Part shown: piece after piece, positions 9,987 to 27,858 of the stretch
How positions within the stretch are numbered: the first letter of the stretch is position 1
Layout of the letters: the number at the start of each line of letters is the position of its first letter
Source: Agromyces cavernae
GTDB lineage: Bacteria; Actinomycetota; Actinomycetes; Actinomycetales; Microbacteriaceae
Length of the DNA stretch: 64,000 nt
Assembly: GCF_021044935.1 (NCBI RefSeq)
Contig: NZ_JAJNMP010000002.1
Span: 434,001 to 498,000 of the forward strand
Reading direction: 5' to 3'
Notes under the pieces: generated by a model
Database searches by the model: none
What the model was told of the DNA's origin: nothing
Seen by the model: only the letters and a program-made list of their open reading frames with translations
Translations under genes and position numbers: made by a program

Positions 9987-11087
<1,101 letters not shown>

Positions 11088-13824: not shown

Positions 13825-15771
13825 CTAGCGGGGCACGGGCGCGCCGTCGGCGCGCAAGTGGCCGTGCACCGTCGTCGCGAGCGCCGGGCCGATGCCCTTC
13901 ACCTCGGCGATCTCGGCCTCGGACGCCGCGCGAAGTCGCTTGACCGAACCGAAGTGGCGCAGCAGCTCTTTCACCCGTGCAGGACCCAACCCCGGAATCT
14001 CGGAGAGCACCGTGCCGATGTCGCGCTTGCGGCGTTGACGCTGATGGGTGATCGCGAATCGATGCGCTTCGTCGCGGACGCGCTGAAAGAGGAAGAGCGC
14101 ATCGCTGTTGCGGGGCAGGATGACCGGGAAGTCCGCGTCGGGCGTCCAGATCTCTTCAAGCCGCTTGGCGATGCCGCACAGGTAGACGCCGTCGACGCCG
14201 GACTCGGACAGGGCGCGGGCGGCGGCGGCGACCTGCGGCTGGCCGCCGTCGACGACGAGCAGGTTCGGCCGATAGGCGAACTTCTTGCGCCGACCGGATG
14301 TCTCGGTGGTGTCCGTGCCGTTCACGTCGGCAGGCTCCGACGCCGCGCCCTCATCGTCATCGACGCCGGCCGGGCGGGCGAGGTACGCCAGCCGACGAGT
14401 GAGCACCTGGTGGATCGAGTCGGTGTCGTCACTCGAGCGGGGAATCGTGAACCGGCGGTACTCGTCTTTGCGCGGGAGGCCGTCTTCGAACACGACCATC
14501 GAGGCGACGATGTTCGTTCCGCTCAGGTGCGAGACGTCGTAGCACTCGATGCGGAGCGGGGCGTCGGCCATGCCGAGCGCCTCTTGAATGTCTTCGAGGG
14601 CTTGCGAGCGAGCGGTGAAATCGGCACTGCGACGCGTCTTGTAGAGCATCAACGTCTGCTTCGCGTTCTGGGTCGCCGTCTCGAGCAGCGCCGCCTTGTC
14701 GCCGCGCTGCGCGACACGGATGCGCACCTTGCGTTCGGCGAGGGTGCCCAGCCAGCTCTCGAGCGCCTCGGCGTCGTCGGGAAGCTCGGGCACGACGACC
14801 TCGCGCGGCGGCCGGATGTCGTCGCCGTAGGCGTTCTGCACGACGAAGTCGACGAGCTCGCCCAGCGGCACGTCGAGCTCCTTGTCGACCGTCCACGACC
14901 GCACACCTCGCACACGACCGCCGCGTACGATGAACTGCTGCACCGCGGCAGCGAGCTCGTCGTGTTCGATGCCGAACACATCGAGGTCGACACCCTCGCC
15001 GAGCACCATGGCGCTGCGCTCGAAGAAGGCGTTCGCGGCCTTCAGTTGGTCACGGAATCGCGCTGCCGCCTCATAGTCCTGGGCGGCCGCCGCGGTGAGC
15101 ATGCGATCGGTGAGCTCCCCCACGATGCGCCGGTCCTGGTTCTGCATGAACCCGACGAATCGATCGACGTTCTCGCGGTGCTCCTCGATCGTGACGCGAC
15201 CCGAGCACGGGCCGAAGCACCTGCCGATCTGACCGGCGAAGCAGGGCTTCCCGCTGGCGATCGCGCGCCGGTAGTCGGAGTCCTTGCATGTGCGGATCGG
15301 GAAGAGCTTCAGCAGGATCTCGAGCGTGTCGTTGATCGCCCACATCTTCGGGTACGGGCCGAAGTATCGCGCCCCCGGTATCTTGCGGTTGCGCGTGACC
15401 ACGGCTCGGGGTGCTTCATCGCCGAGCGTCACCGCGAGGTAGGGGTAGGACTTGTCGTCTTTGAAGCGCACGTTGAACGGCGGCTTGAAGTCGTTGATCC
15501 ACGTGATCTCGAGTTGCAGCGCCTCGACTTCGCTGCCGACCACCGTCCACTCGACCGATGCGGCCGTCGTGACCATGCGCCGGGTGCGCTCCTGCAGCGT
15601 GCGCAGCGGTGCGAAGTAGTTGGAGAGCCGCGACCGCAGGTTCTTGGCCTTGCCGACGTAGAGCACACGACGCTCGGCGTCGCGGAACCGGTACACACCG
15701 GGCGAGGTGGGGATCTCACCCGCCTTCGGCCGGTACGGGACGCCTTGGGTGCTCGACGGCGCTGTGCTCAT
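13825..15771 (-). CDS. uvrC: Excinuclease ABC subunit C
   Basis: UvrC makes both incisions around a DNA lesion after UvrA and UvrB have located it. The 648-residue protein has an N-terminal GIY-YIG nuclease ([26 protein letters not shown], residues about 20-45), a UVR helical pair near residue 210 that contacts UvrB, the RNase H-like endonuclease core starting [25 protein letters not shown], and a C-terminal helix-hairpin-helix tail ([30 protein letters not shown]-like). The frame is open upstream into uvrA, but the ATG at 15771 lies two bases after the uvrA stop and gives the family start. It is transcribed with uvrA. Confidence 0.97.
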
Positions 15772-15773
15772 CC

Positions 15774-18662
<2,889 letters not shown>

Positions 18663-18668
18663 CCTACG

Positions 18669-18691
18669 AGTCTAAAGAGACCCACCGACAT
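18669..18691 (-). promoter_or_regulatory. uvrA promoter: PafBC-type (RecA-NDp-like) DNA-damage promoter, leaderless
   Basis: On the minus strand ATGTCGGTG (18683-18691) is followed after exactly eight bases by TAGACT (18669-18674), and six bases later by the uvrA GTG. The mycobacterial LexA-independent damage promoter consensus is TTGTCRGTG-N8-TAnnnT, which matches at eight of nine upstream positions with the same spacing. Activation by PafBC is inferred from this match. Confidence 0.72.
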
Positions 18692-18717
18692 CGACGCCGG
18701 TGCCGCACCTGCTGAGA

Positions 18718-18733
18718 GCGAACATACGTTCGA
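18718..18733. promoter_or_regulatory. LexA (SOS) box upstream of uvrA
   Basis: GCGAACATACGTTCGA matches the Gram-positive/actinobacterial LexA palindrome TCGAAC-N4-GTTCGA at 11 of 12 positions. It lies four bases beyond the uvrB stop and about 55-70 bases upstream of the uvrA start, in the only intergenic space between the two repair genes. Confidence 0.8.
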
Positions 18734-18736
18734 TTC

Positions 18737-20803
18737 CTAACCGAGGTGGCCGGCCTTCTCCATCTGTCGGAGTTCCCGCTTGAGCTCGGAGACCTCGTCG
18801 CGCAGGCGCGCGGCAAGTTCGAACTTCAACTCGCCCGCCGCTTCGAGCATCTGCCCGTTGAGGTCGCGGATGAGCTCTTCGAGATCGTTGGCGCCCTCGG
18901 CGGCGATGCCCTCGCGTCGCAGGTTGGGCACCGGCGCCTTCGTGCGTGCATCGCGGCCGGCGAGGAACCGCGCGGTGTCGGCCTCTTCGCGCGCGAGCAC
19001 CTCGGTGATATCGGCGATGCGCTTTCGCAGCGGCTGCGGATCGATGCCGTTCACGCGGTTGTACTCGACCTGCTTCTCGCGGCGGCGGGTGGTCTCGTCG
19101 ATCGCGGACTTCATCGAGTCGGTGAGCACGTCGGCGTACATGTGCACCTCGCCGGAGACGTTGCGGGCGGCTCGACCGATGGTCTGGATGAGCGAGGTGG
19201 ACGAGCGCAGGAAGCCCTCTTTGTCGGCGTCGAGGATCGCGACGAGCGACACCTCGGGAAGATCGAGTCCCTCGCGCAGCAGGTTGATGCCGACGAGCAC
19301 GTCATACACACCCGCTCGCAGTTCGGTGAGCAGCTCGACGCGGCGCAGTGTGTCGACATCGGAGTGCAGGTACCGCACGCGCACGCCCGCCTCGGTGAGG
19401 AAGTCGGTGAGCTCCTCGGCCATCTTCTTCGTGAGGGTCGTGACGAGCACGCGCTCGTCACGCTCGGCGCGGATGCGGATCTCTTCGAGCAGATCGTCGA
19501 TCTGCCCCTTCGAGGGCTTGACGACGATCTGCGGGTCGACGAGCCCGGTGGGTCGGATGATCTGCTCGACGACGCCGTCGGCGATACCCATCTCGTAGCG
19601 GCCCGGCGTCGCCGAGAGGTACACGGTCTGGCCGACACGCGCCTTGAACTCGTCCCACTTGAGGGGGCGGTTGTCGAGCGCGCTCGGCAACCGGAAGCCG
19701 TGCTCGACGAGCGTGCGCTTGCGCGACGAGTCGCCCTCGTACATGGCGCCGATCTGCGGCACCGTGACATGCGACTCGTCGATCACGACGAGGAAGTCGT
19801 CGGCGAAGTAGTCGAGCAGGCAGTGCGGCGCCTCGCCCGCCTGTCGGCCGTCGATGTGGCGCGAGTAGTTCTCGATGCCCGAGCAGAACCCGATCTGCTC
19901 CATCATCTCGAGGTCGAACGTGGTGCGCATGCGCAGGCGCTGCGCCTCGAGCAGCTTGCCCTCGCGCTCGAGCTCGGCGAGTCGCTCTTCGAGCTCGATG
20001 CGGATCGTGCCGATCGCCCGTTGCATGACGTCGGTGCTCGCAACGTAGTGCGAGCCCGGGAACACCGGCACCGAGTCGAGCTTCGCGACGACCTGGCCCG
20101 TGAGCGGGTGCAGGCTGTAGAGCGCCTCGATCTCGTCGCCGAACATCTCGATGCGGATCGCGAGCTCTTCGTACACGGGGATGATCTCGATCGTGTCGCC
20201 CCGCACGCGGAACGTTCCGCGCGAGAAGTCGACGTCGTTGCGCTGGTACTGCATCGACACGAACTTGCGGATGAGCCAGTCGCGATCGACGCGCTGGCCC
20301 ACCTGGAGCGGCATCATCGCCCCGAGGTACTCTTCGGGGGTGCCGAGGCCGTAGATGCACGACACGGTTGAAACCACGACCACGTCGCGCCGGCTCAGCA
20401 GCGAGTTCGTGGTCGAGTGGCGCAACCGCTCGACCTCGGTGTTGATCGACGAGTCCTTCTCGATGAAGGTGTCGGTCTGCGGAACGTAGGCCTCGGGCTG
20501 GTAGTAGTCGTAGTACGACACGAAGTACTCGACGGCATTGTCGGGCAACAACTCGCGGAACTCGTTGGCGAGTTGCGCCGCGAGCGTCTTGTTGTGCGCG
20601 AGCACGAGCGTCGGGCGTTGCACCTGCTCGATGAGCCATGCGGTGGTCGCCGACTTGCCGGTGCCGGTGGCGCCGAGGAGCACGACGTCGGTCTCGCCCG
20701 CGTTGATGCGGCCGGCGAGCTCTGCGATCGCCTGCGGCTGGTCGCCGCTCGGTCTGTACTCGCTGACGACCTCGAAGGGGCGGACGGATCGAGTGGCCTG
20801 CAT
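18737..20803 (-). CDS. uvrB: Excinuclease ABC subunit B
   Basis: UvrB verifies damage by opening the helix with a beta-hairpin and then recruits UvrC. The 688-residue protein has the Walker A segment [14 protein letters not shown] near residue 40, the beta-hairpin region [28 protein letters not shown] near residue 95, helicase motifs in the second half ([54 protein letters not shown]) and a C-terminal UVR domain (about 640-685). The ATG at 20803 lies six bases after a TAGACT -10, so the mRNA is probably leaderless. Confidence 0.98.
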
Positions 20804-20809
20804 GCTCCA

Positions 20810-20832
20810 AGTCTAGGAGCGGCCACCGACAC
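20810..20832 (-). promoter_or_regulatory. uvrB promoter: PafBC-type DNA-damage promoter, leaderless
   Basis: GTGTCGGTG (20824-20832) is followed after exactly eight bases by TAGACT (20810-20815), and six bases later by the uvrB ATG, all on the minus strand. This fits TTGTCRGTG-N8-TAnnnT at eight of nine upstream positions. The element overlaps the coaE stop codon region. Confidence 0.72.
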
Positions 20833-21443
20833 TAGGCCCGGCTGCGCTCCTCGACGATGCGGGCCCAGAGTGCGTCGGCTTGGCTCATGGTGTGCGCCAG
20901 CGTGCCGTCGGTGTCGATGACGACGTCGGCGATCTCGAGTCGCTTCGTGTTGTCGACCTGAGCGTCGACCCGCGCCTCGGCCTGCAGCGCGTCGAGGCCG
21001 CGTTCCTCGACGAGTCGCTTCACCTGGGTGCGGCGCGGTGCGTTGGTCACGACGATGAGGTCGAACGGGTGGTCGACGGAGGCCTCGACGAGCAGCGGTA
21101 CGTCGTAGACGACGACCGCCGACGGGTTCTCGGCCTCGGCCTTCGCGATGAGGCGACCGGAGAGCTCGCGGACGGCGGGGTGCACGATGGCGTTGAGCCG
21201 CGCCCTCGCGGCGTCGTCGCCGAAGATGTGCTTGCCGAGTTTCTCTCGATCGAGTGTTCCGTCGGCGCGCAGGAATTCGGCGCCGAACTGCTCGACGATG
21301 GCCGCGAGCGCCGGTGTGCCGGGCTCCACCACGCGTCGGGCGAGGTGATCGGCATCGAGGTGCACCGCCCCGTGTTCGACCAGGCGCCGCGCGACCGTGG
21401 ACTTTCCAGAGGCGATGCCGCCCGTCAGACCGATGAGATACAC
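20832..21443 (-). CDS. coaE: Dephospho-CoA kinase
   Basis: CoaE phosphorylates dephospho-CoA at the ribose 3' hydroxyl, the last step of coenzyme A synthesis. The 203-residue protein begins MYLIGLTGGIASGKSTVARRL with the Walker A motif at residues 8-15, then HLDADHLARRVVEPG and VVYDVPLLVEA. It is a single-domain form of normal bacterial length; some mycobacterial CoaE proteins carry an extra GrpB-like domain, which is absent here. The GTG start at 21443 follows a TAGAGT -10 by six bases, which indicates a leaderless transcript. The gene lies directly upstream of uvrB. Confidence 0.96.
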   Translation of the reverse strand: MYLIGLTGGIASGKSTVARRLVEHGAVHLDADHLARRVVEPGTPALAAIVEQFGAEFLRADGTLDREKLGKHIFGDDAARARLNAIVHPAVRELSGRLIAKAEAENPSAVVVYDVPLLVEASVDHPFDLIVVTNAPRRTQVKRLVEERGLDALQAEARVDAQVDNTKRLEIADVVIDTDGTLAHTMSQADALWARIVEERSRA

Positions 21444-21449
21444 AGCACT

Positions 21450-21455
21450 ACTCTA
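21450..21455 (-). promoter_or_regulatory. -10 element (TAGAGT) of leaderless coaE
   Basis: TAGAGT on the minus strand ends six bases before the coaE GTG start, the spacing expected when transcription begins at the first base of the start codon. No TGTCGGTG element is present here. Confidence 0.55.
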
Positions 21456-21458
21456 ATC

Positions 21459-21686
21459 GTGACGATCTCGAGAGGATCCCCGGTCGCGACTCCGTCGCCG
21501 ACATCGCGCAGACCTCGTCCGTCCACCGCGGGCGCCGGAAGCTTCGCACTGGCCTTCGCGGCGATCCTCGCTCCCGTGCTCGTGATCCTCGGCATCGTGC
21601 TCATCGTGGTCGTCGTGATCCTCCTGGTGCGCAGGCGCCTGTCGCGGAGAACCGGGAGCACGGAGCATCCGTCGTCCGCTCGCTGA
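21459..21686 (+). CDS. Possible small single-span membrane protein (unrecognised)
   Basis: This is the only candidate gene in the 330-base gap between coaE and rpsA. A GTG at 21459 would open a 75-residue frame with a polar Ser/Pro/Arg-rich N-terminal part (about 1-25), one strong hydrophobic stretch (FALAFAAILAPVLVILGIVLIVVVVILLV, about 28-57) and a basic tail RRRLSRRTGS. The pattern suggests an Nout-Cin membrane anchor by the positive-inside rule. It is divergent from coaE. I see no clear ribosome binding site, and the GC-rich background makes chance ORFs common, so it may not be real. The rest of the gap holds only the rpsA terminator. Confidence 0.4.
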   Translation: MTISRGSPVATPSPTSRRPRPSTAGAGSFALAFAAILAPVLVILGIVLIVVVVILLVRRRLSRRTGSTEHPSSAR

Positions 21687-21723
21687 TCGCGAATCGGCGG
21701 CTCGGATGCCCCGAAGTCAAGCA

Positions 21724-21757
21724 CGAAGGCCGGCTCCCTGACGGGAACCGGCCTTCG
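21724..21757 (-). terminator. Terminator hairpin downstream of rpsA
   Basis: A 10-bp perfect inverted repeat (21724-21733 with 21748-21757), extended by an inner CTCCC/GGGA pairing, begins about 17 bases after the rpsA stop. It would also serve the plus-strand small frame ending at 21686 if that is real. Confidence 0.8.
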
Positions 21758-21773
21758 GAATCGCGGATCGCGA

Positions 21774-23225
21774 CTAGTTGTTGCTCGAGAGCTTCTCGCG
21801 CAGTGCCGCGAGCGACGCGTCGTCGGCGAGGGTGCCCGCGCCGGCCGAGTCGCTCGAGTACGACGCACCCGCCGAGGCGAACGAGTCGTCGGCGACCGCA
21901 GCAGCGTTCGCCTGGGCGACCTGCTTCTTGTGCGCCTCCCAACGAGCCTGGGCCGCAGCGTAGTCCTGCTCCCACTTCTCGCGCTGGGCCTCGAAGCCCT
22001 CGCGCCACTCGTTGGTCTCGGGGTCGAAGCCCTCGGGGTACTTGTAGTTGCCCTGCTCGTCGTACTCGGTGAGCATGCCGTAGAGCGCCGGGTCGAACTC
22101 GGTGCCCTCGGGGTCGACGCCCTCGTTCGCCTGCTTCAGCGAGAGCGAGATGCGGCGACGCTCGAGGTCGATGTCGATGACCTTGACGAAGACCTCTTCG
22201 CCGACCGACACGACCTGCTCGGCGAGCTCGACGTGCTTGCCGGACAGCTCGGAGATGTGCACGAGGCCTTCGATGCCGTCTGCCACGCGGACGAACGCAC
22301 CGAACGGAACGAGCTTCGTGACCTTGCCCGGTGCGACCTGGCCGATCGCGTGGGTGCGGGCGAAGACCTGCCACGGGTCTTCCTGCGTCGCCTTGAGCGA
22401 CAGCGAGACGCGCTCGCGGTCGAGCTCGACGGAGAGCACCTCGACGGTGACCTCCTGGCCGACCTCGACGACCTCGCTGGCGTGCTCGATGTGCTTCCAC
22501 GAGAGCTCGGAGACGTGGACGAGACCGTCGACGCCGCCGAGGTCGACGAACGCACCGAAGTTGACGATCGACGAGATGACGCCCTTGCGGATCTGGCCCG
22601 GGTGGAGGTTCGCGAGGAACGTCGAACGCGACTCGGACTGCGTCTGCTCGAGGAGCGCGCGGCGCGAGAGCACGACGTTGTTGCGGTTCTTGTCGAGCTC
22701 GAGGATCTTCGCCTCGATCTCCTGGCCCAGGTACGGCGTCAGGTCGCGCACGCGGCGAAGCTCGATGAGCGACGCCGGGAGGAAGCCACGGAGGCCGATG
22801 TCGACGATCAGGCCGCCCTTGACGACCTCGATGACCGAACCGGTCACGACGCCGTCGGCTTCCTTGATCTTCTCCACGTCGCCCCACGCGCGCTCGTACT
22901 GCGCACGCTTCTTCGACAGGATGAGGCGGCCTTCCTTGTCCTCCTTCTGGAGAACGAGGGCCTCGACGGTGTCACCGACGCCGACGACCTCGCTGGGGTC
23001 GACGTCGTGCTTGATGGAAAGCTCGCGCGAGGGGATGACGCCCTCGGTCTTGTAGCCGACGTCGAGGAGGACCTCGTCGCGGTCGATCTTCACGACGGTG
23101 CCCTCGATGAGGTCGCCGTCGTTGAAGAACTTCAGAGTCTTCTCGACCGCGGCGAGGAAATCGTCAGCAGATCCGATGTCGTTGATTGCGACCTGCTTGG
23201 GCGCCTTGGTCGTTGCGGTTGTCAT
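21774..23225 (-). CDS. rpsA: 30S ribosomal protein S1
   Basis: S1 binds mRNA on the small ribosomal subunit. The 483-residue product has four S1 RNA-binding domains starting near residues 33 (GDLIEGTVVKIDRDEVLLDVGYKTEGVIP), 120, 205 (RKGVISSIVNFGAFVDLGGVDGLVHVSELSW) and 290 (APGKVTKLVPFGAFVRVADGIEGLVHISEL), then an acidic, Ala/Ser-rich tail, as in other high-GC Gram-positives. It lacks the six-domain layout of E. coli S1. The frame is open upstream, but the ATG at 23225 gives the family start MTTATTKAPKQVAINDIGS. A leader of about 100 bases with a 10-bp inverted repeat precedes it. Confidence 0.97.
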   Translation of the reverse strand: MTTATTKAPKQVAINDIGSADDFLAAVEKTLKFFNDGDLIEGTVVKIDRDEVLLDVGYKTEGVIPSRELSIKHDVDPSEVVGVGDTVEALVLQKEDKEGRLILSKKRAQYERAWGDVEKIKEADGVVTGSVIEVVKGGLIVDIGLRGFLPASLIELRRVRDLTPYLGQEIEAKILELDKNRNNVVLSRRALLEQTQSESRSTFLANLHPGQIRKGVISSIVNFGAFVDLGGVDGLVHVSELSWKHIEHASEVVEVGQEVTVEVLSVELDRERVSLSLKATQEDPWQVFARTHAIGQVAPGKVTKLVPFGAFVRVADGIEGLVHISELSGKHVELAEQVVSVGEEVFVKVIDIDLERRRISLSLKQANEGVDPEGTEFDPALYGMLTEYDEQGNYKYPEGFDPETNEWREGFEAQREKWEQDYAAAQARWEAHKKQVAQANAAAVADDSFASAGASYSSDSAGAGTLADDASLAALREKLSSNN

Positions 23226-23256
23226 GTAGTGAATGCTCCGTAAAGGACAAAATCGA

Positions 23257-23298
23257 GCCCATCGCGCGGGAGAGCGTATGTTTGATTCCGCGATGGGC
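23257..23298 (-). promoter_or_regulatory. Inverted repeat in the rpsA mRNA leader
   Basis: A 10-bp perfect inverted repeat (GCCCATCGCG at 23257-23266 with its complement at 23289-23298, 22-base loop) lies in the predicted rpsA 5' leader, 31 bases upstream of the start codon. It could form a stable stem in the mRNA. A role in S1 autoregulation is only a guess, by analogy with other ribosomal protein leaders. Confidence 0.5.
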
Positions 23299-23331
23299 AT
23301 GCGGACAGGGATGTCACACGAGTGACGCTCC

Positions 23332-23361
23332 ATCCTAACGGAATCGCTCCCCCACCAGCAA
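23332..23361 (-). promoter_or_regulatory. rpsA promoter (TTGCTG-N18-TAGGAT)
   Basis: On the minus strand TTGCTG (23356-23361) is followed by an 18-base spacer and TAGGAT (23332-23337). The predicted start near 23325 gives a leader of about 100 bases before the rpsA ATG. It lies in the gap between the DUF885 gene and rpsA. Confidence 0.6.
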
Positions 23362-23374
23362 CCGCGCCGGATGC

Positions 23375-25048
23375 TCAGCCGAGCAGCGCCGACTTGAGCG
23401 TGTCGAGCCCGACCCCGCCGAGGCCCAGCGCCCGTCGGTGGAACTCGCGGATGTCGAACGATGCGCCCTCGCGTCGCGCGAACTCGTCGCGCAACTGCTC
23501 CCAGATGCGCTGCCCCACCTTGTACGACGGCGCCTGGCCCGGCCAGCCGAGGTACCGATTGACCTCGAAGCGCACGAAGCCATCGTTCATGTTGACATTC
23601 TGGGCGAGGAACTCGAAGGCGTAGTCGCCCGTCCACACGCCGTTGCCGTCAGGTCGTTGCTTGCCGAGGTGCACCCCGATGTCGAGCACCACGCGGGCGG
23701 CTCGCATGCGCTGGCCGTCGAGCATGCCGAGGCGATCGGCGGGGTCGTCGAGGTACCCGAGCGTCTGCATGAGCCGCTCGGCGTAGAGCGCCCACCCCTC
23801 GGCGTGACCCGACGTTCCGGCGAGCTGGCGGCGCCAGGTGTTGAGCTGCCCCCGGTTGACGACCGCCTGCCCGATCTGCAGGTGATGGCCGGGCACACCC
23901 TCGTGGTAGACGGTCGTGAGCTCGCGCCACGTGTCGAACTCGGTGACGCCCTCGGGCACCGACCACCACATGCGGCCGGGGCGCGTGAAGTCGTCGCTCG
24001 GCCCGGTGTAGTAGATGCCACCCTCTTGCGTGGGCGCGATCATGCACTCGAGCGAGCGGATCTCGGCGGGGATGTCGAACTGCGTTCCGGCCAGCTCGGC
24101 GACCGCGCGGTCACTCGTCTCCTGCATCCACCGTTGCAGGGCATCGGTGCCGTGAAGCTTGCGGCTCGGGTCGGCGTCGAGCACGGCGATCGCCTCGGCG
24201 ACGGATGCCCCCGGCTTGATCTCGTTCGCGATGGACTCCTGCTCGGCGACCATGCGCGCGAGCTCTTCCACGCCCCACTCGTAGGTCTCATCGAGGTCGA
24301 CCGCGGCACCGAGGAATCGGCGCGACTGCAGGGCGTAGATGTCTCGCCCGACCGCGTCGTGCTCGCCGGCGGCGGGCTGGAGCTCGACCTCGAGGAAGTC
24401 CGCGAGCCTGCCGTAGGCCGCCGATGCTTCGATCGCCCCCGCGCCGAGGTGCCGCTTGAGGGACTCGGGCAGCTCGGCGTCGCCGGCCTTCGCCGACGCT
24501 GCGAAGGTGGCGAAGAACCCGTCTGGCCGCGCGTGCTTGCGAACCTGCGCCGCAACCTCGCGCACCTGCCGTACGGCCGGGACGATTCCCTGACGAACAC
24601 CCTCGCGCAGGGTCTCGACGTACCCGTCGATCGCGCCGGGCACGGCGTTCAGGCGTGTGGCGATGCGTTCCCACTCGGCGGCGTCGTCGGTGGGCATGAG
24701 GTCGAACACTTCACGGACGTCTTGCGCCGGACTCGCGATGACGTTGAGGTCGCGCAGGTGCAGACCCGCCTCGTGCTGCTCGAGCTCGAGCTCGAGCTCG
24801 CTGCCGAGGTCGGCGATCGTGATGCGATCGACGTCGTCGACGGGGGTGGCGGCACGAAGCGCCGCGAGCGCCTCGCGCGTCGCGGCGATCGCACGTTCGT
24901 GCCCGGCCGGCGAGTAGTCGGCGAGGCGCTCGTCTTCGGAGGTGCGGCCGATGTAGGTGCCGATGCCGGGGTTGAGTTCGACGAGTGTGTCGACCCACCC
25001 CTCGGCGATTCGATCGACGTCGGTCGGGGTGCGCTCACTCGAAGACAT
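23375..25048 (-). CDS. DUF885 family metallopeptidase-like protein
   Basis: The 557-residue protein belongs to the DUF885 family, a group of predicted zinc metallopeptidases of unknown substrate. The key motif is YHEGVPGHHLQIG, a variant of HExxPGHH, near residue 375, followed by EGWALYAERL near residue 415, which supplies the third metal ligand region in this family. No signal peptide is visible, so it is probably cytosolic. An upstream in-frame ATG exists at 25078, but the ATG at 25048 sits seven bases after a TATGCT -10 and is preferred. The promoter has the same TGTCGGTG-N8 arrangement as uvrA, uvrB and polA, which links this peptidase to the DNA-damage response. Confidence 0.9.
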   Translation of the reverse strand: MSSSERTPTDVDRIAEGWVDTLVELNPGIGTYIGRTSEDERLADYSPAGHERAIAATREALAALRAATPVDDVDRITIADLGSELELELEQHEAGLHLRDLNVIASPAQDVREVFDLMPTDDAAEWERIATRLNAVPGAIDGYVETLREGVRQGIVPAVRQVREVAAQVRKHARPDGFFATFAASAKAGDAELPESLKRHLGAGAIEASAAYGRLADFLEVELQPAAGEHDAVGRDIYALQSRRFLGAAVDLDETYEWGVEELARMVAEQESIANEIKPGASVAEAIAVLDADPSRKLHGTDALQRWMQETSDRAVAELAGTQFDIPAEIRSLECMIAPTQEGGIYYTGPSDDFTRPGRMWWSVPEGVTEFDTWRELTTVYHEGVPGHHLQIGQAVVNRGQLNTWRRQLAGTSGHAEGWALYAERLMQTLGYLDDPADRLGMLDGQRMRAARVVLDIGVHLGKQRPDGNGVWTGDYAFEFLAQNVNMNDGFVRFEVNRYLGWPGQAPSYKVGQRIWEQLRDEFARREGASFDIREFHRRALGLGGVGLDTLKSALLG

Positions 25049-25055
25049 AGGTGCG

Positions 25056-25078
25056 AGCATAGGGCAGCGCACCGACAC
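25056..25078 (-). promoter_or_regulatory. DUF885 gene promoter: PafBC-type DNA-damage promoter, leaderless
   Basis: GTGTCGGTG (25070-25078) is followed after exactly eight bases by TATGCT (25056-25061), and seven bases later by the ATG at 25048. It matches TTGTCRGTG-N8-TAnnnT at eight of nine upstream positions. Confidence 0.68.
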
Positions 25079-25092
25079 CGCGCATCGGCGTG

Positions 25093-25110
25093 GCCGGTCC
25101 CGACACCGGC
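25093..25110 (-). terminator. Possible weak terminator after polA
   Basis: A six-base perfect stem (GCCGGT/ACCGGC) with a six-base loop starts about 23 bases after the polA stop. It is short and has no U tract. Confidence 0.3.
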
Positions 25111-25132
25111 GAGCTCAGCGGATCGGCTCGAG

Positions 25133-27829
25133 TCAGTGCGCCGCCGCGTCCCAGTTCGCACCGCGGCCGATCTCGACGTCGAGCGGCACGAGAAGATCCG
25201 CCGCGCGCGCCATGCGGTCGCGCACGATCGCCTCGAGCGCCTCGGACTCACCGTGTGCGACCTCGAAGATGAGTTCGTCGTGCACGGTGAGGAGCATGCG
25301 GCTGCCGAGCCCCTGCGTGGCGATCTCGGCCTCGACGCCGACCATCGCGATCTTCATGACATCCGCGGCCGAGCCCTGGATCGGGGAGTTCAGCGCGGCG
25401 CGTTCAGCGTTCTCACGAAGCACGCGATTGGGGCTGTTGAGGTCGGGGAACGGACGACGACGACCGAAGATCGTCTCGGTGTAGCCGTCGACCTTCGCCT
25501 GCTCGACGACACCGCGAAGGTAGTCGCGAACGGCGCCGAAGCGCTCGAAGTACTCGCGCATGAGCTGCTGCGCCTCGGCGCGCTCGATGCGCAGCTGCTT
25601 CGAGAGCCCGAACGCGCTGAGGCCGTAGGCGAGCCCATAGGACATCGCCTTCACCTTCGTGCGCATCAGGGGCGTGACATCGGCCGGGTCGACCCCGAAG
25701 ACACGTGCGCCCACGAATCGGTGCAGGTCCTCGCCCGCGTTGAACGCCTCGATGAGACCGGGATCGCCGGAGAGGTGCGCCATGATGCGCATCTCGATCT
25801 GCGAATAATCTGCGGTCAGCAGCTCGGCGAACTCGGGACCGTGCCGGAACGCCTTGCGGATGCGACGACCCTCGGCCGTGCGGATCGGGATGTTCTGGAG
25901 GTTCGGGTCGTTCGACGACATGCGACCGGTCGCGGCGCCGATCTGCCCGTAGGTCGTGTGGATGCGCCCATCGGCGCCGATCGCCTTGTCGAGCGACTCG
26001 ACGATCTGTCGGAGCTTCGTCGCGTCGCGATGCTCGAGCAGGTACCCGAGGAAGGGGTGCGGGTTGGACTCCTGCAGGTCGGCCAGCGCACTCGCGTCGG
26101 TCGTGTATCCGGTCTTTGTGGCTCGGGTCTTCGGCATGCCGAGTTGGTCGAACAGCACCTCTTGCAGTTGCTTGGGCGACCCGAGGTTGACCTCGCGGCC
26201 GATCTCGGCATAGGCCAGCTTCGCGAGCCCGGCGGCACGGTCGCCGAGTTCGGACGAGAGCTCCGAGAGTTCGGGGTGGTCGACGGTGACTCCGCGCAGC
26301 TCCATGGCGGCGAGCACGGGCACGAGCGGCATCTCGACCTCGGCGAGCAGGCGACGCGAGCTCTCGGACAGCGCCCGCAGCACGACCGGCGCAAGGCGCA
26401 ACGAGTACCAGGCGTATTCGGGCGCACCGGCGTCGCTGCCCTCTTCGGGTACGAGCAGCGACGGATCAGCCTGCGGAACGGTCTCACCGAGGTGGAAGCG
26501 AACGAGGTCGGCGAGCGACTTCTCTTGCAGCGCCGGTCGTACCATCCAGCCCGCGACGAGTGGATCGAGCACGAGCCCGCCGAACGCGAGGCCCGACGTC
26601 GACAGCGCCTTCAACTGCCCCTTGGCGTCGGTGACGACCTTGGGGGCATCGCCGGCGAGCCACGCCTCGAACGGTGCGAGCTCGGTTTGCCCCGCCTGCC
26701 ACGCAACCCGCACCGACTCGCCTGATGTGGCGATACCCGCCCCGATCACCCTGCCGTCGAGCACGTCGAGGCTGAGCCCGAGACCGGCGGGCTCGGCGGC
26801 GACCGCTTGCTCGAGCCAGCTCGCAAGCTCATCGCCGACCAGGGCGCGCGACTTCGGGGCTTCGGGCGCCGGCACGGCCTCGGCCGCGATGGGCTCGGCA
26901 GGTGCGGCAGGGGCGGCGCCGCCGTTGCCGTTGCCTTCTCCTGCCGCCAGCTTGGTCAGCCGCTCCATCAGCGTGCGGAACTCGAGCCGTTCGAAGATCG
27001 GCCGAACGGACTCGAGGTCGATCGGCTTGGCGATGAGCTCATCGATCTCGACGTCGAGTTCGACGTCGCGAACGAGTTGGTTGAGCTTGCGATTGCGTAC
27101 GGCGTTCTCGCGCCCGTCGCGCAGGTTCTGCCCGACGACCCCCTTGATCTCCTCGGCGTGCGCGAGGATGCCGTCGAGGTCGCCGTAGAGGCCGAGCCAT
27201 TTCACCGCGGTCTTCTCGCCCACCTTCGGGATGCCGGGCAGGTTGTCGCTGGTCTCGCCGACGAGGGCTGCGACGTCGGGGTACTGCTCGGGCCTGATGC
27301 CGTATCGCTCGATGACCGCGGCCGTGTCGTAGCGCTTGAGCTGCGAGACGCCCTGGGTGTTGGGGTACAGCAACGTGACGTCGTCGTTGACGAGCTGGAT
27401 CGTGTCGCGGTCGCCCGAGACGAGCAGCACCCGGTACCCCTCGGTCGCTCCGCGTGCCGCGAGCGTGGCGAGGATGTCGTCGGCCTCGAAGTCCTCTTTC
27501 TCGAGCGTGCGCACGCCCATGGCCTTCAGCGCGTCCTGCAGCAGCGGCACCTGGCCCTTGAACTCGGGCGGGGTCTCGCCTCGATTGCCCTTGTACTCGG
27601 CGTACTCGCGCGTGCGGAACGACTGGCGCGACATGTCGAACGCGACCGCGAGGTGGGTCGGCTTCTCGTTCGCGAGCAGCAGCAGCAGCATCGAGAGGAA
27701 TCCGTGGATCGCGTTCGTGTGCTGCCCGTCGCGGGTCGAGAAGCTGTCGACGGGGAGGGCGTAGAAGGCCCGGAAGGCCAGCGAGTGGCCGTCGATCACG
27801 AGGAGGGTTGGCTTATCTGCGTCCGACAC
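25133..27829 (-). CDS. polA: DNA polymerase I
   Basis: DNA polymerase I fills repair gaps and removes RNA primers. The 898-residue protein has an N-terminal 5'-3' exonuclease domain (VIDGHSLAFRAFYALP, then DFEADDILATLA and LVSGDRDTIQLV, residues about 10-300) and a central domain (about 320-490) in which the acidic 3'-5' proofreading motifs are not recognisable, as in other Actinobacteria. The C-terminal polymerase has motif A TADYSQIEMRIMAHLSGD, motif B KVKAMSYGLAYGLSAFGL and motif C LTVHDELIFEV. The GTG at 27829 lies six bases after a TAGTCT -10, so the transcript is probably leaderless, with a damage-type promoter. Confidence 0.98.
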   Translation of the reverse strand: MSDADKPTLLVIDGHSLAFRAFYALPVDSFSTRDGQHTNAIHGFLSMLLLLLANEKPTHLAVAFDMSRQSFRTREYAEYKGNRGETPPEFKGQVPLLQDALKAMGVRTLEKEDFEADDILATLAARGATEGYRVLLVSGDRDTIQLVNDDVTLLYPNTQGVSQLKRYDTAAVIERYGIRPEQYPDVAALVGETSDNLPGIPKVGEKTAVKWLGLYGDLDGILAHAEEIKGVVGQNLRDGRENAVRNRKLNQLVRDVELDVEIDELIAKPIDLESVRPIFERLEFRTLMERLTKLAAGEGNGNGGAAPAAPAEPIAAEAVPAPEAPKSRALVGDELASWLEQAVAAEPAGLGLSLDVLDGRVIGAGIATSGESVRVAWQAGQTELAPFEAWLAGDAPKVVTDAKGQLKALSTSGLAFGGLVLDPLVAGWMVRPALQEKSLADLVRFHLGETVPQADPSLLVPEEGSDAGAPEYAWYSLRLAPVVLRALSESSRRLLAEVEMPLVPVLAAMELRGVTVDHPELSELSSELGDRAAGLAKLAYAEIGREVNLGSPKQLQEVLFDQLGMPKTRATKTGYTTDASALADLQESNPHPFLGYLLEHRDATKLRQIVESLDKAIGADGRIHTTYGQIGAATGRMSSNDPNLQNIPIRTAEGRRIRKAFRHGPEFAELLTADYSQIEMRIMAHLSGDPGLIEAFNAGEDLHRFVGARVFGVDPADVTPLMRTKVKAMSYGLAYGLSAFGLSKQLRIERAEAQQLMREYFERFGAVRDYLRGVVEQAKVDGYTETIFGRRRPFPDLNSPNRVLRENAERAALNSPIQGSAADVMKIAMVGVEAEIATQGLGSRMLLTVHDELIFEVAHGESEALEAIVRDRMARAADLLVPLDVEIGRGANWDAAAH

Positions 27830-27835
27830 CCGACA

Positions 27836-27858
27836 AGACTACAAGCGGCCGCCGACAC
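27836..27858 (-). promoter_or_regulatory. polA promoter: PafBC-type DNA-damage promoter, leaderless
   Basis: GTGTCGGCG (27850-27858) is followed after exactly eight bases by TAGTCT (27836-27841), and six bases later by the polA GTG. It matches TTGTCRGTG-N8-TAnnnT at seven of nine upstream positions, the weakest of the four in this window. Confidence 0.6.

Follow-up and report, generated by a model that had tools for sequence, protein, structure and literature searches.

The 64,000-nucleotide (64-kb) stretch of the Agromyces cavernae genome analysed here, hereafter the window (contig NZ_JAJNMP010000002.1, positions 434,001 to 498,000), carries uvrA, uvrB and polA, each preceded by the same short promoter: a TGTCGGYG block, a spacer of exactly eight bases and a TANNNT -10. 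These three genes very probably belong to a DNA-damage regulon controlled by PafBC through promoters of the RecA-NDp type. The RecA-NDp/P1 consensus of M. tuberculosis and M. smegmatis is tTGTCRgtg-8 nt-TannnT (nt, nucleotides; Gamulin 2004, quoted in PMC5656591; this source and PMC8223512, PMC6789036, PMC11804915, PMC5087735 and PMC8165232 are cited from excerpts throughout). The system itself, RecA-NDp promoters with PafBC, is already known; the apparently Pup-less setting in which it is found here is less expected.

Promoter elements in the window

The pattern TGTCGGYG-N8-TANNNT occurs exactly four times in the window, each time on the minus strand, whereas 100 shuffled sequences average 0.01 matches and never contain more than 1. 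An original prediction made from the sequence alone had described these four promoters, at uvrA, uvrB, a DUF885 gene and polA, as a putative LexA-independent DNA-damage regulon. The elements are present at the positions it gave, with ends that were one base too long, and the start codon indeed lies six or seven bases past the -10 at all four genes (uvrA, GTG at 18660-18662, 6 bases; uvrB, ATG, 6; DUF885 gene, ATG, 7; polA, GTG, 6). Since the four exact matches are the sole ones in the window, the promoters of hisE, rpe and sodA are without the element, as had also been noted. The features discussed below are the following.

15774..18662, minus strand: uvrA (Pfam UvrA_inter, UvrA_DNA-bind)
18669..18690, minus strand: putative PafBC/RecA-NDp-type promoter of uvrA; TGTCGGTG at 18683-18690, 8-base spacer, -10 TAGACT at 18669-18674
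18719..18732, no strand assigned: LexA/SOS-type palindrome CGAACATACGTTCG 5' of uvrA, the only CGAACN4GTTCG match in the window
18737..20803, minus strand: uvrB (Pfam UvrB)
20810..20831, minus strand: putative PafBC/RecA-NDp-type promoter of uvrB; TGTCGGTG, 8-base spacer, -10 TAGACT
23375..25048, minus strand: DUF885 gene (PF05960, E-value 4.3e-162)
25056..25077, minus strand: element-like sequence 5' of the DUF885 gene; TGTCGGTG, 8-base spacer, -10 TATGCT
25133..27829, minus strand: polA (Pfam DNA_pol_A, 5'-3' exonuclease)
27836..27857, minus strand: putative PafBC/RecA-NDp-type promoter of polA; TGTCGGCG, 8-base spacer, -10 TAGTCT

Distribution of the element in the genome

In the whole genome containing the window (4.07 Mb, 99.98% complete), the slightly wider pattern TGTCRGYG-N8-TANNNT matches 22 times and its reversed-pattern control once. 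When the spacer is left free between 4 and 12 bases, 22 of the 33 matches fall at exactly eight, the remaining eight lengths together accounting for 11; only the eight-base spacer is enriched. An ATG or GTG gene start lies 6-10 bases past the -10 at 13 of the 22 sites and at none of the four wrong-spacer matches checked (four of the 11). Site L046, with an ATG 7 bases on, is not counted among the 13, as its 48-codon frame has almost no coding score. Allowing one mismatch yields 167 matches against 52 for the control, an excess that suggests a larger regulon.

The clustering at repair genes that had been foreseen is borne out by nine of the 22 sites, which stand 5' of genes for DNA repair or topology: uvrA, uvrB, polA, recA, pcrA/uvrD, an adnB-like gene, a TM0106-type RecB-like nuclease-helicase, an AlkZ-like DNA glycosylase and a gyrase/topoisomerase IV A subunit. 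The recA gene begins 129 bases past its element and the gyrase/topoisomerase gene 85 bases past. The adnB-like target encodes a UvrD/PD-(D/E)XK protein that no curated model names adnB; the name is our assumption from its domain make-up. Among NCBIfam models, no named family was matched by PafB, PafC, the DUF885 protein or the AlkZ-like protein.

Conservation at the four genes

Conservation was scored as the core TGTC-N12-TAnnnT within about 60 bases 5' of the start; five of 20 polA loci and one of 20 DUF885 loci were set aside as not assessable (stretch ends or partial alignments). The core precedes uvrA and uvrB in 23 of 23 same-genus relatives each, with the strict form in 16 for either gene, and is also found 5' of uvrB in four of six loci from other families. 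At polA all 15 assessable relatives carry it, eight of them in the strict form. At the DUF885 gene the core is present in two of 19 assessable relatives and the strict form in none, most of these relatives having a TAGGCT-like -10 near the start. Three members of the proposed four-gene regulon are thus upheld, and the DUF885 gene is rejected as a conserved member. Its site is probably a chance match or a lineage-specific one; by our own arithmetic from base composition, a strict block at a given -10 has a chance probability of about 1e-4, so that one such coincidence is to be expected when thousands of promoters are considered together.

As a separate observation, the eight-base spacer of the polA promoter (GGCCGCTT-like; window 27836-27857, relatives L082-L100) is itself strongly conserved in the genus, above those of uvrB and uvrA.

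PafB, PafC and their locus

Eight WYL matches are present in the window genome, and two adjoining ones correspond to PafB and PafC, whose genes overlap by 4 bases. The pafC product contains HTH_PafC, WYL and WCX domains. For both proteins the best match in the PDB is PafBC of A. aurescens, 6sj9 (E-values of 8.1e-38 for PafB and 7.4e-44 for PafC). An R-x-F-E-R pattern in the recognition helix of PafB is found in the window genome and in the six named relatives examined. The named relatives are Agromyces, among them A. humatus with a PafB of 97% identity, and, at a greater distance, Leucobacter; both genera belong to the Microbacteriaceae. In our reading of the alignment, this pattern would match the residues R44, F46 and R48 described in PMC6789036.

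The locus (L031:1-18001, positions 328000-346000 of contig C3 of the window genome) has the order trmI-FKBP-pafB-pafC-tatA-tatC-helY, and no Pup ligase lies nearby. These names are in part our assumption from domains, and that of tatA from its frame. Of the 38 named loci, 37 have trmI, FKBP and pafB in succession, separated by 30 to 553 bases; in the one exception (L304) trmI lies outside the stretch viewed. The same stretch L031 also contains a gene for an SOS-response-associated peptidase (SRAP) at 15342-16040.

The original prediction had expected pafB and pafC beside Pup-proteasome genes. The pair is present and adjacent; the Pup part of this expectation did not hold. PF03136, the model covering PafA and Dop, matches nothing in the window genome or in any of 120 sampled genomes of the family, the genes for Pup, Arc/Mpa and the 20S subunits not having been searched for. 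The same search is positive in C. glutamicum. HTH_PafC is matched in 118 of the 120 family genomes, in 117 of them above its cut-off. A literature search for Microbacteriaceae together with Pup returned nothing relevant, and among the papers listed for PafBC together with Agromyces none mentions Agromyces.

LexA-type boxes at uvrA and recA

The CGAACATACGTTCG palindrome sits 41 bp upstream of the uvrA element and conforms to CGAACN4GTTCG, which we take to be the actinobacterial SOS-box consensus. By chance, 0.14 such matches are expected in the window, and 12 of 100 shuffles contained one. Of 23 relatives, 17 have the shorter form GAACN4GTTC 5' of uvrA, and in 16 of the 17 it stands 40 or 41 bases ahead of the element; it is found 5' of uvrB in none of 23 and 5' of polA in none of 15 relatives. 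Upstream of recA, GAACATCTGTTC lies 87 bases before the element. At the remaining 20 of the 22 sites in the genome, no LexA-type box lies within 400 bases upstream. The term LexA-independent in the original prediction hence fits uvrB and polA and does not fit uvrA, because a LexA-type box stands 5' of uvrA and none at the other two. Both uvrA and recA are probably under dual control by PafBC and LexA, judging from these boxes. Such dual control by PafBC and SOS is described in mycobacteria for recA, uvrA and uvrC (PMC8223512).

Motif and PafC across the family and the phylum

Among the 120 family genomes, 119 have the promoter motif, with 1575 motif matches against 118 control matches. When these genomes are divided by strength of the PafC match at an E-value of 1e-10 (1e-15 in other classes), a split chosen after the lists had been viewed, the 114 with strong PafC give 1558 matches against 106, the motif outnumbering the genome's own control in 109 of them; the six with no or weak PafC give 17 against 12 (two without PafC, 6 against 5; four with weak PafC, 11 against 7). 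At the level of the phylum, the motif is matched 2317 times, against 119 for the control, in 74 genomes that share the class or are closer, and 623 times against 379 in 324 genomes from other classes.

Several results weigh against control of these promoters by PafBC. In the window genome, 13 of the 22 sites lie at genes without a known repair role or in doubtful positions. The named targets of this kind are the DUF885 gene, a DrrA-type ABC ATPase, an epoxide-hydrolase-like protein, another alpha/beta hydrolase, a GNAT protein, an LLM-type oxidoreductase and an MFS transporter; five further sites stand at short or unassigned frames (one HNH-like by eye), and L046 lies inside a predicted gene. 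Some sites overlap the 3' end of the preceding gene (e.g. L032, L044). Within the family, five of the 114 genomes with strong PafC show no motif excess, and the group with no or weak PafC consists of only six genomes, mostly small. G153 has strong PafC and zero motif matches. In other classes, 121 genomes with a PafC-like helix-turn-helix (HTH) domain show only 317 matches against 142, so that the motif cannot be predicted from a PafC HTH by itself.

Sites in other genomes

Comparison of the targets covered all exact matches in three genomes, G073 (17), G071 (15) and G045 (14), and 14 of 16 in G076, where one match gave no open frame and gene starts are unreliable since the codon scores were derived from the G+C-rich window. 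As exact matches alone were considered in these genomes, absences mean little. Counting the window genome, the element is found 5' of an adnB-like gene in five of five genomes, of recA in four, of uvrA in three and of uvrB in two. Once or twice in the other genomes it precedes mfd, recG, ligA, MgsA/RarA, dnaX, an SbcD-like nuclease, ftsK and exonuclease- or endonuclease-type proteins, and many other sites there stand 5' of genes without a repair role or of short frames.

In the relatives L144, L154 and L104, elements lie 5' of a YhcG-type nuclease, an ApeA/HEPN defence-like protein and an HsdR-like helicase, and a link between the damage response and phage defence is possible. We also note a small frame of 83-84 codons, 43-45 bases past an element, in both same-genus genomes compared (L041:3053-3301 and L114:2704-2955); the L041 copy has no Pfam match and may encode a small damage-response protein. 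Two TGTCAGTG elements are located 6 kb apart (L038:4203-4224 and 10447-10468) in a stretch where few genes are predicted; next to one of them are, judged by eye, a tRNA-like sequence and an HNH-like frame, and the other lies 5' of a 45-codon lysine-rich frame. This stretch is possibly a mobile island that exploits the host damage promoter.

The element at clpX promoters

In the genomes compared, the exact element also occurs 5' of clpX in two and 5' of clpP in one. A clpX match is present in 119 of the 120 family genomes, and the upstream region was examined in 110 of these (G028, G035, G048, G058, G064, G099, G103, G104 and G110 were left out). The core TGTC-N12-TAnnnT lies 5' of clpX in 74 of the 110 genomes (L161-L270), the same 74 having it within 150 bases, and the strict form in 14. 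Gaps of 6-11 or 13-18 in place of 12 are found in 0 to 2 genomes. When TGTC is replaced by any of 12 other four-letter words, 0 or 1 genomes match, with the exception of CGTC, which differs by one base and matches in 10. At least two of the 74 elements (L169, L261) are positioned differently from the rest. The core is absent 5' of clpX in the window genome (L191) and in the same-genus relative G073 (L192). It occurs in one of the six genomes with no or weak PafC and in 73 of the 104 others (Fisher p = 0.014, a rough value, given the relatedness of the genomes and the post hoc split). The clpX promoter may act without PafBC, because its -10 region (GGGTTAGGCT) is itself conserved.

We tentatively consider that PafBC may have recruited clpX in most genera of this family without detected Pup ligase or Dop, and that ClpXP could serve as an induced shut-off arm of the response, although we rate this reading as rather doubtful. 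The reasoning, equally tentative, is that such a family would lack the mycobacterial system that clears RecA after damage. The clpX link is less expected than the regulon, and its novelty is unproven: no link between PafBC and clpX is found in the excerpt of PMC8165232, and PMC8151990 does not mention clpX.

Alternative readings

The best surviving alternative, though an unlikely one, is that ClgR, the regulator of Clp genes, reads the element alone or together with PafBC. In M. smegmatis, ClgR reportedly recognises the RecA-NDp motif (Wang 2011, cited in PMC5656591), and the frequency of the core at family clpX promoters and the single clpP site agree with such a role. However, the constant spacing from the -10, in the window genome as well as at clpX, fits a factor that places RNA polymerase from -26, as PafBC does (PMC11804915), and the six genomes with no or weak PafC show little motif excess. 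Very improbable, and rejected, is the reading that the element reflects the promoters of high-G+C actinobacteria in general, or their base composition, without any regulator specific to damage: a TAGGCT-like -10 near the start does occur without the element in the DUF885 relatives, but the near-empty reversed-pattern control, the enrichment of a single spacer length, the nine repair or topology genes among 22 sites and the presence of exactly four strict sites in 64 kb speak against it. The weakest candidate, an extracytoplasmic-function (ECF) sigma factor using TGTCGG as its -35, is suggested by the two-block layout with strict spacing and is likewise rejected, as with an eight-base gap the block sits near -26, at too short a distance for a -35 (the usual spacer being 16-19 bases), and TAnnnT is a -10 of the sigma-A type.

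Proposed mechanism

Control by PafBC remains the preferred reading, and its mechanism is carried over from mycobacteria (PMC11804915, PMC8223512), PafB being reported to bind near -26 (PMC11804915). By this analogy, damage would generate single-stranded DNA, which would be bound by the WYL domains of a PafB-PafC heterodimer. The HTH of PafB would then bind the TGTCRGYG element, whose centre lies near -26, PafC would contact domain 4 of sigma-A, and RNA polymerase would start from the TAnnnT -10 with no -35 being used. If a sigma-A -10 ends at -7, a start codon six bases beyond it coincides with +1, and the uvrA, uvrB and polA transcripts are therefore predicted to be leaderless, with +1 on the start codon.

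Comparison with known systems

The mycobacterial RecA-NDp/P1 promoters, which are controlled by PafBC, have the same block, eight-base spacer and -10 as those of the window genome. In mycobacteria the Pup-proteasome genes sit between trmI and pafB, whereas here pafBC directly follows trmI-FKBP and no Pup ligase or Dop was found in the window genome or the 120 family genomes. Two further differences are the start codon 6-7 bases past the -10, with predicted leaderless transcripts, and polA as a target, which is not seen among mycobacterial targets in the excerpts of the literature examined. Reported PafBC targets include recA, UvrABC and AdnAB, and the promoter type extends to other Actinobacteria (PMC8223512). 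In Streptomyces, RecA-NDp promoters at recA and the UV-inducible SCO6735 (PMC5087735) represent the same type outside mycobacteria; the system differs in that S. coelicolor has a Pup system (PMC8223512) and SCO6735 is a different gene. PafBC of A. aurescens (6SJ9; PMC6789036) is the closest solved relative of both proteins and is a single fused protein, in contrast to the two adjacent, overlapping genes of the window genome.

Biological meaning

The boxes described above suggest that a second actinobacterial lineage has uvrA, as well as recA, connected to both SOS and PafBC. With PafC in 118, the promoters in 119 and Pup ligase or Dop in none of the 120 family genomes, the comparison shows that a damage response under PafBC can exist separately from the Pup system. 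Such an apparently Pup-less family opens the question of how the response is shut off without pupylation, for which the clpX element is a candidate.

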